Source: Caldithrix abyssi DSM 13497 | GTDB lineage: Bacteria > Calditrichota > Calditrichia > Calditrichales > Calditrichaceae | Length of the DNA: 64,000 bases | Reading direction: 5' to 3' | Assembly (NCBI RefSeq): GCF_001886815.1 | Contig: NZ_CP018099.1 | Span: forward strand, 2,044,501 to 2,108,500 | Shown here: one piece after another, positions 8,980 to 15,847 of the stretch | Position numbering within the stretch: the first letter of the stretch is position 1 | How the letters are laid out: each line of letters starts with the position of its first letter | Translations under genes and position numbers: made by a program | Notes under the pieces: generated by a model | What the model saw: the letters and a program-made list of their open reading frames with translations, nothing else | What the model was told of the DNA's origin: nothing | Databases searched by the model: none

Positions 8980-9094
8980 AGTTAGAGAAAAATTTGATCA
9001 CTTTTGAAGTTTTATTTAATTCTGTAAAGCCATGACCGAATTTAAATAAGGAACACGGAAGTTCTGGGACTCTATGGAAAGAAGCAAGGCCCGT

Positions 9095-9122
9095 AGCCAT
9101 CCTGCTGAAAAGCAGGATGGCT
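9095..9122 (+). terminator. Rho-independent terminator after phoU
   Basis: A perfect 12-bp stem pairs 9095-9106 (AGCCATCCTGCT) with 9111-9122 around a GAAA tetraloop, followed by ATTTTGTTT. It ends the phosphate module. Confidence 0.85.
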
Positions 9123-9392
9123 ATTTTGTTTAGAAAACTTTCTTCAAAAATTCTGGCGCTTTGACGACCCTAAATTTTAAAGCGGCTGAAAAAAAGCCGC
9201 TCAATTAACAAGTACGCCATACGCGTAAATGAAAAACCCTCCTCATCGGACTCGAAAAAAATCGTCAAATTCACTTTTTACGCCGCATTGCTCAAATGTC
9301 GCGCCATTTCCTTTGTCTTCTTCACGATAATTAAATCAAAAGTCTTTTGCCTGAACCAAAATGTATAAAATTGCATGCAAGTGTAAAAAAAT

Positions 9393-9420
9393 TTGCATTT
9401 TCTTTGCTGTTTATTATATT
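9393..9420 (+). promoter_or_regulatory. Probable promoter of the arginine operon
   Basis: TTGCAT (9393-9398) and TATATT (9415-9420) are separated by 16 bp. Transcription would begin near 9427, about 20 bases before the leader peptide start. The region is AT-rich. No clear ArgR palindrome is seen, although a TGCATGCA repeat lies just upstream (9372-9379). Confidence 0.45.
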
Positions 9421-9445
9421 TGCCAAAACAAAAATTGAAACGGTT

Positions 9446-9523
9446 ATGATGCAAAGTTTAATTTTTATTCACTTACCACGCTATTTTTATTTTTACCGAC
9501 CTCGCGGGCGACGACGATCGTAG
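9446..9523 (+). CDS. Arginine-rich leader peptide of the arginine biosynthesis operon
   Basis: A 25-codon frame starts at ATG 9446 (a second ATG follows directly) and stops at TAG 9521. The product contains six Arg, five of them in the seven residues RPRGRRR just before the final Ser. The codons there are CGA, CGC, CGA, CGA, CGA, with three CGA in a row. A short frame loaded with the end-product amino acid, 80 bp ahead of the biosynthetic operon and just behind a plausible promoter, is the hallmark of ribosome-mediated attenuation. Scarce Arg-tRNA would stall the ribosome over the hairpin at 9504-9530. No clear Shine-Dalgarno site is seen. It is too short for ordinary gene callers. Regulatory function is inferred. 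Confidence 0.6.
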   Translation: MMQSLIFIHLPRYFYFYRPRGRRRS

Positions 9524-9538
9524 GCCCTGCTTTATTTA
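9504..9538 (+). terminator. Possible attenuator hairpin overlapping the Arg codons
   Basis: GC-GGGC at 9504-9509 pairs with GCCC-T-GC at 9524-9530 with one bulged T, and is followed by TTTATTTA. The left arm lies inside the Arg codon run, so a stalled ribosome would prevent folding. The loop holds the palindrome ACGATCGT. The stem is short, so efficient termination is not certain. Confidence 0.35.
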
Positions 9539-9604
9539 CAAAACCAAACGTATTTTTATTAATCGAATCGCGTAAACTTTTTCTTTACTGAGAAGGAGTC
9601 ATTA

Positions 9605-10213
9605 ATGGACAAAAACAAAGTAACTATTGTAACTGCAAGCCAGGAACACTTTAAATATGCAGAGAAAATCTGTGAAACAATCGAAGACGCCGCTAAAATC
9701 AGAGGCACCGGTATTGCTAAACGCAAACCGGAATATATCCGCTCCAAAATGCGCGAAGGAAAGGCGGTTATTGCCTTAACGTCGGATGGCCGATTGGCCG
9801 GCTTTTGCTACATCGAAAGCTGGGGCAAAGAGAAGAATTACGTGGCCAATTCCGGTTTAATCGTCGTGCCGGAGTTCAGAGAGCTGGGACTGGGCAAAAT
9901 GATTAAAAAGGCCGCCTTTGAACTTTCTCGCAAAAAATATCCCCATGCCAAACTGTTTGGTATTACCACCAGTCCGGCGGTGATGAAAATAAACTATCAA
10001 CTTGGTTACCGGCCGGTAACCTTTGCCCAGCTCACGGACGACGAAGAGTTCTGGAAAGGTTGTGAGAGCTGCGTAAATTTTGACATCTTACAACGAACCA
10101 ACAGAAAGCATTGTCTGTGCACGGCCATGCTGTTTGATCCAGAAGAAAAGAAGAAAAACAAAACGAAAGAAAGTGAAGTCATCAATGAACAAAAAAGTAG
10201 TGTTGGCCTTTAG
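9605..10213 (+). CDS. GNAT acyltransferase, probable N-acetylglutamate synthase (Bacteroidetes type)
   Basis: A GNAT-fold acyltransferase of 202 residues. Motif A with the acyl-CoA pyrophosphate loop is seen at VVPEFRELGLGKMIKKAAFEL. A distinctive C-terminal segment carries four cysteines, GCESCVNFD then KHCLCTAMLF (C-x2-C, later C-x-C), and could bind a metal. GNAT proteins of this type sit at the head of arginine operons in Bacteroidetes relatives and are taken to make N-acetylglutamate (or the succinyl analogue). GAGAAGGAG precedes the ATG. The 3' end overlaps argG by 29 bp, so the two are coupled. The acyl donor cannot be told from sequence. Confidence 0.8.
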   Translation: MDKNKVTIVTASQEHFKYAEKICETIEDAAKIRGTGIAKRKPEYIRSKMREGKAVIALTSDGRLAGFCYIESWGKEKNYVANSGLIVVPEFRELGLGKMIKKAAFELSRKKYPHAKLFGITTSPAVMKINYQLGYRPVTFAQLTDDEEFWKGCESCVNFDILQRTNRKHCLCTAMLFDPEEKKKNKTKESEVINEQKSSVGL

Positions 10214-11393
10214 CGGCGGTCTGGATACCACCTACTGCGCCAAATATCTGGCGAGTGAAAAGGGGCTGGACGTTTTTACCATCGCCGTTAACACCGGCGG
10301 TTTTTCGAAAGACGAGGTGGAGGCCCTGGAAGCCAAAGCCCGCCAGCTTGGCGTCGTCGAGCACCGCACGGTAAACATTGAACAGGAATTTTACGACCGG
10401 TGTGTCAAATACCTGATTTTTGGCAACGTGTTACGCAATGGCGTTTACCCGCTTTCGGTCAGCGCAGAACGCGTGTTTCAGGCCATGGCTGTTGCCGACT
10501 ATGTGAAAGAGATCAACGCCGATTACGTGGCGCACGGCAGCACCGGCGCCGGTAACGATCAAATCCGCTTTGATATGATCTTTCAGATTCTTTTGCCGCA
10601 GGTTGAAATTTTAACGCCCGTGCGCGATCAAAAACTTTCGCGCGAAGAAGAGATCGCCTACCTGAAAAAGTTTGGGCTGGATGTGCCTTGGCAAAAGGCA
10701 AAATATTCCATCAATCAGGGGCTGTGGGGCACATCGGTGGGCGGAGAGGAAACATTAACATCGCACCGTCCTTTGCCTGAAGAGGCGTACCCCACACAGG
10801 TTACCGAACAAACGCCGCTGGTTTTAACGCTGCAATTTGAAAACGGAGAGCTGAGCGGATTTAATGATCGCAAGTTTGACAATCCGCTCAAGGCCATTAA
10901 AGCCTTAAACGCCCTAATTGCCCCTTACGGTATTGGACGGGACATTCACGTGGGCGATACCATCATCGGCATTAAAGGAAGAGTGGGCTTCGAAGCGCCG
11001 GCGCCGCTGCTGATTCTAAAAGCGCATCAGTTGCTGGAAAAGCATGTTCTTACGAAATGGCAGATGTACTGGAAAGACCAACTGGCCAACTGGTACGGCA
11101 TGCTGTTGCACGAAGGGCAATATTTGGAGCCGGTAATGCGCAATATCGAAACGTTTTTAGAGGACACGCAACATCATGTCAGCGGAACGGTTTTTGTAAA
11201 AGTTCATCCTTACCGTTTTGAATTACAGGGAATTAAAAGTCCCTTTGATTTAATGGCTTCCGACGCAGCGGCTTACGGCGAAATGAACCATTTATGGGAT
11301 GGTAACGACGCCCGCGGTTTTGCAAAGATTCTGGCCGTCCAGAGTAGAATTTTCCATCAGGTGCAACAAAAAGCCGGAGGTAATGAGGAATGA
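10185..11393 (+). CDS. argG: Argininosuccinate synthase
   Basis: It joins citrulline and aspartate with ATP to form argininosuccinate. The product has 402 residues starting MNKKVVLAFSGGLDTTYC, where SGGLDT is the ATP-pyrophosphatase P-loop at about residues 10-15. Other family blocks are the AHGSTGAGNDQIRFD substrate loop and YSINQGLWGTSVGGEE. A 35-residue longer frame exists upstream, but it lies inside the GNAT gene; ATG 10185 gives the expected N-terminus. The stop overlaps argC (ATGA). Confidence 0.95.
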   Translation: MNKKVVLAFSGGLDTTYCAKYLASEKGLDVFTIAVNTGGFSKDEVEALEAKARQLGVVEHRTVNIEQEFYDRCVKYLIFGNVLRNGVYPLSVSAERVFQAMAVADYVKEINADYVAHGSTGAGNDQIRFDMIFQILLPQVEILTPVRDQKLSREEEIAYLKKFGLDVPWQKAKYSINQGLWGTSVGGEETLTSHRPLPEEAYPTQVTEQTPLVLTLQFENGELSGFNDRKFDNPLKAIKALNALIAPYGIGRDIHVGDTIIGIKGRVGFEAPAPLLILKAHQLLEKHVLTKWQMYWKDQLANWYGMLLHEGQYLEPVMRNIETFLEDTQHHVSGTVFVKVHPYRFELQGIKSPFDLMASDAAAYGEMNHLWDGNDARGFAKILAVQSRIFHQVQQKAGGNEE

Positions 11394-12355
11394 TTCGTGC
11401 GGGAATTGTGGGCGGAGCGGGATATGTAGGCGGCGAATTACTGCGCATTTTGCTCAACCATCCATGGGTGGAACTGGCTTTTGTACACAGCCGCAGTCAG
11501 GCCGGTAAACCGCTAACCGACGTGCACAAAGATTTAATCGGCGAAACAAAGATGTGTTTTTCGGAGACTATTTTACCCGATGTGGATGTGTTGTTCCTGA
11601 GTATGGGGCATGGCGCATCTGCGGAGTTTTTACAAAAAACGAACCTCAAGTCTGGTATTAAGATCATCGATTTAAGTCGGGACTTTCGTCTGAAAACAAC
11701 GGACAACGATTTTGTGTACGGTTTGCCGGAAGCATTTAAAGATCAAATTAAAACGGCCTCGAAAGTTGCCAACCCGGGATGTTTTGCCACGGCCATTGAA
11801 CTGGCTTTGTTACCGCTGGCTGCCGGCGGTTTGCTGCAGGCGGAAGCGCATGTTTCTGCCATTACGGGTTCCAGCGGGGCCGGGCAGGCCCACTCAGAAA
11901 CCACGCATTTTACCTGGCGCAGCGGCAATGTGTCGCTTTACAAACCGTTTAAGCATCAGCATCTGGAAGAAATTAAGCAAACCCTGCAGCGCGTCGGCAG
12001 CGGTGAACAGCCGGTCATCCGTTTTGTGCCCATGCGCGGCAGTTTCACGCGCGGCATTCTGGCGGCCGTTTACACAAAGGCCAAACTGAATCTAAAAGAA
12101 GCGCGCTCTTTGTACGAAGCCTATTTCCTTCAGCATCCCTTTGTGTTTGTGGTCGAGGCTAACCCGGATGTAAAGCAGGTAGTCAATACCAATAAAGCGT
12201 TGCTGCACCTGATAAAAGAAGACGATCAGCTGCTCATCATCAGCGTCATTGACAATCTGATTAAAGGCGCCGCCGGTCAGGCCGTGCAAAACATGAATTT
12301 AATGTTTGGCCTTGCGGAGAATGTGGGATTGCATTTAAAACCATCGGCTTATTAA
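11390..12355 (+). CDS. argC: N-acetyl-gamma-glutamyl-phosphate reductase
   Basis: An NADPH-dependent reductase of 321 residues that makes acylglutamate semialdehyde, the third step of arginine synthesis. The N-terminal Rossmann motif is GIVGGAGYVGGELLRIL. The catalytic cysteine lies in ANPGCFATAIELAL. GSSGAGQAHSETTHF and PFKHQHLEEI are family blocks with the active-site His. The start overlaps the argG stop by 4 bp. The next 170 bp before argB hold no gene I can recognise. That gap is where argD or argF would sit in some relatives. Confidence 0.95.
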   Translation: MIRAGIVGGAGYVGGELLRILLNHPWVELAFVHSRSQAGKPLTDVHKDLIGETKMCFSETILPDVDVLFLSMGHGASAEFLQKTNLKSGIKIIDLSRDFRLKTTDNDFVYGLPEAFKDQIKTASKVANPGCFATAIELALLPLAAGGLLQAEAHVSAITGSSGAGQAHSETTHFTWRSGNVSLYKPFKHQHLEEIKQTLQRVGSGEQPVIRFVPMRGSFTRGILAAVYTKAKLNLKEARSLYEAYFLQHPFVFVVEANPDVKQVVNTNKALLHLIKEDDQLLIISVIDNLIKGAAGQAVQNMNLMFGLAENVGLHLKPSAY

Positions 12356-12525: not shown

Positions 12526-13296
12526 ATGAAAAGAAAATTAACGATTTTTAAAATAGGCGGAAGAGTTCTGGAAGATGAACAGGCATTGGGCGCATTCTTA
12601 AAGGCTTTCAGCGCCTGGCCGGAACTCAAGCTGCTGGTACATGGCGGCGGGAAAAAAGCGACGCAAATTGCGGATCAATTAGGCTTTACGCCCCGCATGA
12701 TCGAAGGCCGGCGCATTACCGATGAACCGGCTCTGGAAGTGGCTTTAATGGTTTACGGCGGCCTGTACAACAAAAAGATCGTGGCTCTGCTGCAGGGACT
12801 TGGCGTAAATGCCGTTGGTTTAAGCGGAGCCGACGCCGGATTGATTTTGGCCCAAAAACGGCCGGCGCAAACCATCGATTTTGGGCTGGTGGGCGACGTC
12901 GTAAAGATTGATTCGCTGCGCGTACACTGGTTTCTGGAAACTGATCTGACCCCGGTGTTTTGCGCATTGACGCATGATGGCCGGGGACAAATGTTGAACA
13001 CTAACGCCGATACTATTGCCACGCAACTGGCCATTTCCATGAGCGCCGTTTTCCCCACGGAATTGATCTTCTGCTTCGAAAAGCCGGGTGTGCTTGCGCA
13101 GGCGCAGGACGAATCCAGTGTTATTCCGCAACTGAATGCGGCACTTTACGAACGGTATCGCCAGCAAAAGGTCATTACCGATGGGATGATTCCCAAGCTG
13201 GACAACGCCTTCGACGCCTTACGTAAAGGAGTGCAAAAGGTGCGCATTACGCATTTTAATCAACTGAAAAAAGGAACGCATATTACATTGGAATAA
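12526..13296 (+). CDS. argB: Acetylglutamate kinase
   Basis: An amino acid kinase family enzyme of 256 residues that phosphorylates N-acetylglutamate. The N-terminal FKIGGRVLED carries the nucleotide lysine, and LLVHGGGKKATQIAD is the conserved glycine loop. IEGRRITDEPALEVALMVYGG binds substrate, MLNTNADTIATQLA is typical of the family, and VITDGMIPKLDNAFDALRKGVQKVRI closes it. No N-terminal arginine-sensing extension is seen, so this is the short form, usually not feedback-inhibited by arginine. It ends 4 bp before the argE-like gene. Confidence 0.93.
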   Translation: MKRKLTIFKIGGRVLEDEQALGAFLKAFSAWPELKLLVHGGGKKATQIADQLGFTPRMIEGRRITDEPALEVALMVYGGLYNKKIVALLQGLGVNAVGLSGADAGLILAQKRPAQTIDFGLVGDVVKIDSLRVHWFLETDLTPVFCALTHDGRGQMLNTNADTIATQLAISMSAVFPTELIFCFEKPGVLAQAQDESSVIPQLNAALYERYRQQKVITDGMIPKLDNAFDALRKGVQKVRITHFNQLKKGTHITLE

Positions 13297-13300
13297 TCTC

Positions 13301-14374
13301 ATGCAAAATATTCAACAATTGACCAACGAAGCCATCGAACTGCTTAAGCAATTGATTAAACGGCCGTCTTTTAGCGGGCAGGAAGATGAAACTGCGGCGC
13401 TGATCGAGGCCTTTTTGCAGGAAAAGGGCGTCGCCACCAGCCGAAAACACAACAATGTGTGGGCGCTTAATAAAAATTTTGATCCGACCAAACCGACGCT
13501 TTTGCTCAATTCACATCACGACACGGTACGTTCGGTGCAGGGCTGGCAAACCGATCCGTTTGAACCGGTGGTCAACGACGGAAAATTAATCGGACTGGGA
13601 AGCAACGACGCCGGCGGGCCGCTGGTCAGTTTGCTGGCTGTTTTTGTCTATTTTTACGAAAAAGAGAATCTTTCGTACAACGTTATCATGGCGGCCACGG
13701 CAGAAGAAGAAAATTCCGGTGAAAAAGGTATCCGCTCCGTACTGCCGGAATGGGGCGCCATAGACCTGGCGATCGTTGGAGAACCAACCGGCATGCAAAT
13801 GGCCACTGCCGAAAAGGGCCTGATGGTTTTGCGCTGTAGAGCGCATGGCGTGGCCGGCCATGCCGCCCGCAATTTGGGGGAGAACGCCATTCTAAAAGCA
13901 ATGAAAGACATCGAATGGTTCAGCACGTTTCAGTTCCCAAGAGTTTCGAAACTGCTGGGGCCGGTGAAAATGACGGTAACCACCATTCAGGCCGGCGAAC
14001 TGCACAATGTGATTCCCGATCGTTGCGACTTTACAGTGGACATCAGAACAACGGAAGTTTACACGCATGAAGAGATTCTGGACCTCATCCGCCAGAATAT
14101 CGAAAGCGAGATCGTTCGCACTTCGCTGCGCCTGAAACCGTCTTCCATCGACGCCGGGCATGAGCTGGTGAAAATTGCGGAAAAAATGGGCATCTCCACC
14201 TTTGGTTCGCCCACGCTTTCCGATCAGACTTACATCGAAGCGCCCTCTGTGAAAATGGGGCCGGGCATGTCGGAGCGTTCGCACACGCCCAATGAGTTCA
14301 TTTACCTGAGGGAGATTGAAGATGGCATTAGAAAATACGTTCAGCTATTGGAAAGGCTGCTGGGGGGAGGGTAG
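13301..14374 (+). CDS. argE: M20 deacylase, probable N-acetylornithine deacetylase
   Basis: A zinc peptidase-family M20 enzyme of 357 residues, here expected to release ornithine or citrulline from its acyl group. Metal and catalytic residues are visible: His-Asp in NSHHDTV, bridging Asp in GSNDAGGPLVS, catalytic Glu pair in TAEEENSGEKG, Glu in VGEPTG, and the distal His in SERSHTPNEF. The central dimerisation domain includes AHGVAGHAARN. The place between argB and argH supports ArgE over DapE or carboxypeptidase G relatives. Whether the substrate is acetylornithine or acetylcitrulline depends on which argF type the genome has; none is in the window. Confidence 0.88.
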   Translation: MQNIQQLTNEAIELLKQLIKRPSFSGQEDETAALIEAFLQEKGVATSRKHNNVWALNKNFDPTKPTLLLNSHHDTVRSVQGWQTDPFEPVVNDGKLIGLGSNDAGGPLVSLLAVFVYFYEKENLSYNVIMAATAEEENSGEKGIRSVLPEWGAIDLAIVGEPTGMQMATAEKGLMVLRCRAHGVAGHAARNLGENAILKAMKDIEWFSTFQFPRVSKLLGPVKMTVTTIQAGELHNVIPDRCDFTVDIRTTEVYTHEEILDLIRQNIESEIVRTSLRLKPSSIDAGHELVKIAEKMGISTFGSPTLSDQTYIEAPSVKMGPGMSERSHTPNEFIYLREIEDGIRKYVQLLERLLGGG

Positions 14375-14500: not shown

Positions 14501-15847
14501 ATGAAAAACAGTAAAAAAGTGTGGCAAAAAAATAGTCCATTAGATGCAGAAGTGGAACAATTTACCATCGGCAAAGATCTGCAATTGGATGATCTGCTGG
14601 CCCGGTGGGATGTCATCGGTTCACTGGCGCACAGCGCCATGTTGCGAAAAGTGGGATTGCTCGATGAAAATATCCATCAAAAGCTGCAAAACGGCCTGAA
14701 GCAAATTCTGCGCCAGATTGATTCCGGCTCCTTTCGTTTTGAGCCGGGCGTAGAAGACATTCATTCGCAGGTTGAATTATTGCTGACCAAAATGGATGCC
14801 GAAGCCGGAGCGCGTTTGCACACCGGCCGTTCGCGCAATGATCAGGTGCTGGTTGACCTGCGGCTTTTTGTACGGGCCGAAATTAAAAAGATCGTGGAAC
14901 TGGTGCGCGCGCTTTTCGATTTGCTAATCCATTTAAGCGAGCAGTACAAAGACGTTTTACTGCCCGGCTACACGCATTTGCAGATTGCCATGCCATCGTC
15001 TTTTGGCCTGTGGCTGGCGGCCTTTGCCGAAAGTCTGGTGGACGATTTAATCCAGTTGCAGGCCGCCTACCGCCTGGTCAACAAAAATCCTCTGGGCTCT
15101 GCGGCCGGGTACGGCTCCGGCTTTCCTTTAGATCGCCAAATGACCGCCAGACTGCTGGGCTTTGATGAGTTGAACGTCAATTCGGTGTACGCCCAGATGA
15201 CCAGAGGCAAAATGGAGCGCGTGGTCGCCCAAGCGCTGGGCGGCATCGCCGAAACGTTGAGCAAGCTGGCCATGGACCTGGTGCTCTATCAGAGCCAGAA
15301 CTTCGGATTCGTTAAATTTCCGGAAAGCATTACCACTGGTTCGAGCATCATGCCGCACAAAAAAAATCCGGATGTGTTTGAGATTTTACGCGCCAGGTGT
15401 AATCGCTTAAAAACATTGCCTGTGCAGATACAAATGGTTGCCAACAACCTGCCTTCCGGTTACCACCGTGATTTTCAGATTACAAAGGAGCAGTTTTTAC
15501 CCGCGTTTCAGGATTTGAAGGAGTGCCTGACCATACTCATCCACGTGCTGCCCAAAATGGAAGTCAACCGCCAGATTTTAAAAGATGAAACATACCGCAC
15601 TCTTTTTACAGTGGAAGCGGTAAACGAGCAGGTTAAAAAGGGCGCGCCGTTCAGAGAGGCTTACCGTCAGGTGGCCGAAGAGGTGAGCAAGGGGCTGTTT
15701 AAACCTCCGGAAAAGGCGCATTACAGCCACGAAGGCAGTATCGGCAATCTGGCCAACGCGCAGATTAAACGCCAGATGCAGTCGATTTTAAAAGAATTCA
15801 ATTTCGAAAAATGGCAACGGGCGCTGGAAAAATTGACTGCCGATTAG
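14501..15847 (+). CDS. argH: Argininosuccinate lyase
   Basis: It cleaves argininosuccinate to arginine and fumarate, the last step. The 448-residue protein is of normal length for the fumarase/aspartase superfamily. Motifs are DIHSQVELLL, LHTGRSRNDQVLVDLRLF, LPGYTHLQIAMPSSFG and the superfamily signature GSSIMPHKKNPD with the flexible catalytic loop. YHRDFQITKE follows. The ATG at 14501 has a GAGAACGG site upstream. It follows argE after 126 bp that contain G-rich, low-information sequence. A promoter of its own cannot be excluded. Confidence 0.95.
   Translation: MKNSKKVWQKNSPLDAEVEQFTIGKDLQLDDLLARWDVIGSLAHSAMLRKVGLLDENIHQKLQNGLKQILRQIDSGSFRFEPGVEDIHSQVELLLTKMDAEAGARLHTGRSRNDQVLVDLRLFVRAEIKKIVELVRALFDLLIHLSEQYKDVLLPGYTHLQIAMPSSFGLWLAAFAESLVDDLIQLQAAYRLVNKNPLGSAAGYGSGFPLDRQMTARLLGFDELNVNSVYAQMTRGKMERVVAQALGGIAETLSKLAMDLVLYQSQNFGFVKFPESITTGSSIMPHKKNPDVFEILRARCNRLKTLPVQIQMVANNLPSGYHRDFQITKEQFLPAFQDLKECLTILIHVLPKMEVNRQILKDETYRTLFTVEAVNEQVKKGAPFREAYRQVAEEVSKGLFKPPEKAHYSHEGSIGNLANAQIKRQMQSILKEFNFEKWQRALEKLTAD

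Follow-up and report, generated by a model that had tools for sequence, protein, structure and literature searches.

ArgR and the genes of arginine biosynthesis form the textbook example of repressor control. In the his and trp operons, by comparison, a leader (e.g., hisL) lies between the promoter and the operon and contains a short frame in which successive codons specify the pathway product, and the leader that we describe here, ahead of an arginine-biosynthesis operon, is laid out in the same way. The 1:2 hairpin of trp carries the control codons in an arm and the stop codon in the loop, an arrangement that also applies to the hairpin of the arginine leader. The arginine leader differs from the his and trp leaders in its amino acid and in that we found neither a U-tailed terminator nor a general antiterminator pair. 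It likewise differs from the Bacteroid-trp RNA motif, which concerns tryptophan and which, going by its name, we take to belong to trp genes.

That motif (RF01692) is listed as a candidate cis-regulatory RNA of the Bacteroidetes (PMC2864571). Three further systems resemble the arginine leader in part. The SpeFL (orf34) leader peptide of Salmonella speF senses arginine with the involvement of Rho, and it shares with the arginine leader the consecutive Arg codons and the lack of an intrinsic terminator (PMC6386406). However, SpeFL controls ornithine decarboxylase in gammaproteobacteria and has the core HIRRT...HIMM (PF10940); reading of the peptides did not reveal this core in the arginine leaders, and the operon is also a different one. 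In the candidate Cys leaders of mycobacterial cys operons, a run of cognate codons adjoins the stop codon and a terminator is lacking, as in the arginine leader, and Rho has been suggested for them; they differ in their amino acid (cysteine), in their host phylum (Actinobacteria) and in that no conserved hairpins were reported (PMC1262725). In rbfL of Staphylococcus aureus, Arg codons of an upstream frame sense arginine limitation, as proposed here, but there are only two of them and both are rare codons (PMC13009471).

Neither Rfam nor the literature searched yielded a leader peptide belonging to an operon for arginine biosynthesis; this literature consisted of open-access papers, so that an earlier report elsewhere is possible. 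A flavobacterial transcriptome paper mentions clues for leader-peptide attenuation upstream of amino acid operons in general terms only (PMC9723704). Rfam covariance models (Bacteroid-trp, T-box, speF and others) gave no match at gathering score in the DNA analysed or in 20 related loci.

The DNA analysed (the window) is a stretch of 64,000 nucleotides from the genome of Caldithrix abyssi, which comprises 4.98 Mb on one contig and has its near relatives in the Calditrichota. A first-pass annotation had placed a short Arg-rich frame ahead of an operon of acylglutamate synthase, argG and argC. These three genes indeed follow the frame, and argB, an argE-like gene and argH come after them (Table 1). 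The locus corresponds to argAGCBEH (Cabys_1732-1737) of the C. abyssi genome paper, where the N-acetylglutamate synthase is described as a new isoform restricted so far to C. abyssi and the Bacteroidetes; a leader is not mentioned in that paper's passages on the locus (PMC5317091).

Table 1. Features of the arginine leader region and of the operon, with positions in the window
Feature	Position	Strand	Details
Candidate ArgR (ARG) box	9362..9375	+	TGTATAAAATTGCA, 2 mismatches vs TGAATAAAAATKCA
Promoter	9392..9422	+	sigma-70-like TTTGCA-17-TATATT(TG), scored at 9392-9420
Arginine leader peptide ORF (putative)	9446..9523	+	MMQSLIFIHLPRYFYFYRPRGRRRS, then stop; start 9446 or 9449 possible
Arg codon cluster, proposed sensor	9497..9517	+	CGA CCT CGC GGG CGA CGA CGA (R18 P R20 G R22 R23 R24)
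Hairpin over last Arg codons and stop codon	9504..9530	+	-12.6 kcal/mol
Tentative hairpin masking the GNAT Shine-Dalgarno sequence	9576..9599	+	Shine-Dalgarno sequence AGAAGGAG; z -1.9
GNAT-type N-acetylglutamate synthase (argA isoform)	9605..10213	+	new NAGS isoform per PMC5317091
argG, argininosuccinate synthase	10185..11393	+	
argC, N-acetyl-gamma-glutamyl-phosphate reductase	11390..12355	+	
argB, acetylglutamate kinase	12526..13296	+	
argE-like deacylase	13301..14374	+	
argH, argininosuccinate lyase	14501..15847	+	

The frame has 25 residues with six arginines, five of them within RPRGRRR, and its sequence and translation are exactly as first annotated. The Arg codons start at 9479, 9497, 9503, 9509, 9512 and 9515, and the stop codon occupies 9521-9523. 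When the 400 nt upstream were subjected to dinucleotide shuffling, 5 of 3000 shuffles produced a frame with four or more Arg among its last eight residues, and among the 785 short ATG frames of the window five are this rich in Arg, the leader being one of them. On these figures alone, the Arg frame of the window would be no more than suggestive; what decides the matter is the comparison with relatives, which shows that the 25-codon frame is genuine and not a product of chance.

Of the 40 Calditrichota genomes examined, 20 yielded the GNAT gene; the set includes incomplete genomes, so that a single absence of GNAT or ArgR is soft evidence. In 18 of the resulting 20 loci, an ATG frame whose last 10 residues include three or more Arg precedes the gene (shuffles: mean, 0.94; maximum, 3), and in 14 of 20 such a frame has four or more (shuffles: 0.10; maximum, 1). 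The stricter test, applied to the other 19 amino acids, picks out none or one of the Calditrichota loci for each, and on the reverse strand it picks out one. The two Calditrichota leaders that fall below the Arg-density criterion (L006 and L007) were recognized by inspection. Arg occupies the second- and third-last codons of 18 of the 20 leaders, where it is spelled CGA, CGT, AGA or AGG, and it recurs at the fourth-last (13/20) and eighth-last (11/20) codons; the N-terminal parts diverge. Since Arg is kept with synonymous codons, other amino acids are not enriched and the N-termini are not conserved, selection acts on the Arg codons and not on one DNA sequence. An alignment of upstream regions of GNAT-argG operons had been proposed along with the first annotation; this comparison reveals a short frame ending in Arg codons that is kept despite drift of the DNA.

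A GNAT alignment scan of named genomes extended the comparison to the best 80 of at least 590 loci, nearly all of them from Bacteroidota, with taxon labels that we assigned from the record titles. Among these best 80 loci, an Arg-rich leader precedes 41 of the 57 operons without an adjacent argR (shuffles: 6.1; maximum, 9), and it precedes none of the 21 in which argR lies directly 5' of GNAT, which belong to Bacteroidales and relatives. By taxon, and again among the best 80 loci, the leader is found in 22/22 Flavobacteriia/Flavobacteriales, 4/4 Sphingobacteriales, 2/2 Balneolaceae and about half of the Cytophagales, and by the Arg criterion it is missing from several loci of Cytophagales, Marinilabiliales, Kapabacteria and Ignavibacteria. 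In a set of 16 Flavobacteriia, the second- and third-last leader codons encode Arg without exception, with exchange of CGC and CGT at the third-last position. With the frame and its terminal Arg codons conserved across Calditrichota and Bacteroidota, the initial proposal of an unannotated arginine leader peptide controlling the arg operon has gained strong support.

Whole-genome searches with the ArgR C-terminal domain gave a hit in each of five genomes with an argR-linked operon and in none of 20 without one, 19 of which bear the leader. Leader and operon-linked argR thus complement each other, in that none of the operons headed by argR has the leader and ArgR is missing from all 19 of the leader-bearing Bacteroidota genomes that were checked. 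In the Calditrichota, ArgR is encoded in 29 of the 40 genomes, including that of the window. The six genomes of Calditrichota family f2 lack ArgR, and both GNAT-bearing members of this family carry the leader. Together, these groups form a natural series of leader plus repressor (most Calditrichota), leader alone (Flavobacteriia and family f2) and repressor alone (Bacteroidales). In the relatives without ArgR, the leader may act alone.

The promoter suggested earlier at 9393-9420 coincides with a sigma-70-like site in our scoring, and a Bacteroidetes-type TAnnTTTG -7 element (TATATTTG, 9415-9422) fits it as well. Each of the 11 loci of families f1 and f4 has a pair of the form TTTG(C/A)...TA(A/T)ATT on the 5' side of its leader. 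The pair has no match in any locus of families f2, f3, f5 or f6, where this pattern therefore lends no support to a transcription start. In 14 of the 16 Flavobacteriia, the Bacteroidetes -7 box TAnnTTTR ends 4-9 nt, mostly about 7 nt, before the leader ATG (e.g., L041, L048, L080 and L087). The leader is therefore expected at the very 5' end of the Flavobacteriia transcript, and this spacing implies that the peptide would be translated from a leaderless or almost leaderless mRNA.

Two further features were observed in the Bacteroidota. Some Flavobacteriaceae (L044, L062, L068, L070 and L086) have a tandem pair of Arg-rich short frames before the operon. In Flavobacteriia (L032-L103) and in Cytophagales (L030, L066, L096 and L102), a second hairpin lies 20-40 nt 3' of the leader stop codon; its pentaloop is of the type U-N-N-G-U (UGAGU, UACGU or UAUGU), and in some of these sequences its stem varies on both sides.

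It had been stated that no ArgR box is evident at this locus, which now seems doubtful. Compared with the ARG box consensus TGAATAAAAATKCA, a site with two mismatches is located just 5' of the promoter. This candidate is weak by itself, being equalled in 5 of 100 shuffles, but its position matches that of boxes in relatives with no mismatch (L003 and L011) or one mismatch (L007), and the genome encodes ArgR (G000:C1:1275056). With ArgR encoded and an ARG-box-like site directly 5' of the promoter, the arg operon of Caldithrix is probably under dual control by the leader and ArgR. Another ARG-box-like sequence with one mismatch, TGAATAAAAATTAA, is found on the minus strand at 9458-9471 within the leader frame and is possibly due to chance.

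In many relatives, the last Arg and Pro codons of the leader form the 5' arm of a hairpin that has the stop codon in its loop, e.g., GACC-GTAA-GGTC, GACGAT-AGTAAT-ATCGTT, GACCGT-AATATTA-ACGGTC and GTAGACCC-TAAC-GGGTCTAC, among others. The summed score for a stem across the stop codon is 246, whereas 1000 shuffles of the downstream sequence gave a mean of 98 and a maximum of 159. In families f3, f5 and f6, a combined pattern of leader and hairpin occurs once per genome in seven genomes, always at the arg operon, and the reversed pattern used as a control has no match in the same seven. The hairpin with a T-rich tail that the first-pass annotation had drawn over the Arg codons (9504-9538) holds as a hairpin, spanning 9504-9530, but not as a terminator: a terminator scan made no call on it, and its tail CTTTATTT contains scattered T with no U run. 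Its stability does not exceed that of shuffled sequences (z -0.92), and we therefore regard the stop-codon hairpin as a property of the family more than as something that the window proves. No U run follows the equivalent hairpin in the relatives, and the structure is not a normal intrinsic terminator.

We looked for pairings that would compete with the stop-codon hairpin. We found no general mutually exclusive pairing in the window, and inspection by eye revealed no downstream complement of the 3' arm, as in a classical 2:3 antiterminator, in families f3, f5 and f6 or in Flavobacteriia. In L002 and L004 (family f1), Arg-codon segments of the form CGACC...GGTCG...CGACC can pair alternatively 5' of the stop-codon hairpin; this is not general.

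The best explanation for the observed leader frame, its Arg-specific conservation, its link to the operon, the hairpin of the relatives and the mutual exclusion with operon-linked argR is, with high probability, ribosome-mediated attenuation of the arg operon by a leader that senses charged tRNA-Arg. We infer from the sequences that the leader is translated, that ribosomes stall on it when charged tRNA-Arg is short and that expression of the operon rises as a result. The leader, whose chief conserved trait is the run of Arg codons ahead of its stop codon, would be transcribed first from the promoter and would signal to the following operon how much charged tRNA-Arg is available. When arginine is plentiful, the ribosome would reach the stop codon and depart, the stop-codon hairpin would close and most transcripts would give no operon expression. 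With scarce arginine, the ribosome would stall at the CGA/CGC run and cover the 5' arm of the hairpin together with the C-rich leader RNA, and expression of the operon would go on. The arginine leader would then work like the leader peptides of other amino acid operons, but on the terminator test it falls outside the classical trp/his attenuator class.

Attenuation is likely, and our first guess for the way in which expression is cut off is Rho-dependent termination, which we favour because there is no intrinsic terminator, because leader and spacer are rich in C and poor in G and because Rho is encoded (in 40 of 40 genomes). The ratio of C to G is 2.0 in the leader and still 1.55 over the next 70 nt, as opposed to 1.0 further upstream; the C-rich composition may result from codon choice.

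Alternatively, the output could be translational, with the position of the ribosome on the Arg codons deciding whether the hairpin at 9576-9599 masks the Shine-Dalgarno sequence of GNAT. Such an output is possible in the genus Caldithrix since all four genomes of the genus can form the masking hairpin, that of the window and three others with comparable structures (z -1.2 to -1.6), and the lack of a visible terminator is compatible with it. Nevertheless, z values of only -1.2 to -1.9 are modest, the hairpin is absent from L008 and L011, more than 50 nt separate it from the Arg codons, to which it has no evident connection, and its direct effect would be on the first gene only. We consider translational control unlikely.

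A still less probable reading is that of an arrest peptide, in which a nascent chain ending in RRRP before the stop codon would stall termination in the manner of TnaC or SpeFL and the effector would be free arginine or a related metabolite. The position of the stop codon within the hairpin loop is in keeping with this idea, as is the identity of the last residue, which is Pro, after two or three Arg, in 13 of the 20 Calditrichota leaders and in 16 of the 16 Flavobacteriia. However, the RRRP ending, although common in these two groups, is not kept in Cytophagales or Sphingobacteriales, and other classes of leader end in PRRR, ILPRA, PLLG or PLVG and yet keep their Arg codons, which is why we favour codon sensing over arrest. 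It should also be noted that the Pro codons (CCG/CCC) double as a hairpin arm and that a stall induced by arginine would need to turn the operon off.

A classical attenuator of the trp/his type with an intrinsic terminator at 9504-9538 is improbable. A hairpin of the stability given in Table 1 followed by CTTTATTT might suggest one, but we rejected this candidate on the scattered T, the silent terminator scan, the shuffle-like stability and the relatives without a U run. The his operon of the same genus demonstrates how clear a terminator can look. There, a leader MPVRKKLNHTHCGHIHHSFIKGAQ ending at a stop codon is followed by CCCGGTTCATTGCGAATCGGG-TTTTTT, and an upstream segment GCGCAATGA can pair with the latter (L173, G000:C1, 5' of hisG near 2846160; also L171 and L172). 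This arrangement has the hallmarks of a classical His leader attenuator with an intrinsic terminator, and the arginine leader is built differently. Finally, repression by ArgR alone, with a conserved element in RNA or DNA of which the short frame is a by-product that is not translated, would agree with the ArgR gene and with the ARG-box-like site and its perfect counterparts in relatives, but is very improbable given that conservation is at the amino acid level with enrichment of Arg only and that leaders persist without ArgR and vanish where argR heads the operon.

Codon-sensing attenuation would place a leader peptide that is conserved across two phyla in a pathway known for repressor control. 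The leader provides a testable answer to the question of how these bacteria control arginine synthesis, and it very probably switches the genes on when arginine is short. More tentatively, and with somewhat less than even confidence, we suggest that in Bacteroidota without ArgR and in some Calditrichota, the principal or even sole arginine-specific switch of arginine biosynthesis could be a leader-peptide sensor and not a repressor, with the sensor operating through a hairpin with the stop codon in its loop and not through an intrinsic terminator and, in Flavobacteriia, on an almost leaderless mRNA.

Apart from the leader, the window has the sequence CTCTATGGAAAGAAGCAA at 9066-9124, after phoU, with a strong terminator hairpin behind it; this could be a small RNA or a conserved 3' end. 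The 18-mer is found again in two other genomes of the genus Caldithrix, a single time in each and on the contig that carries the arg operon.
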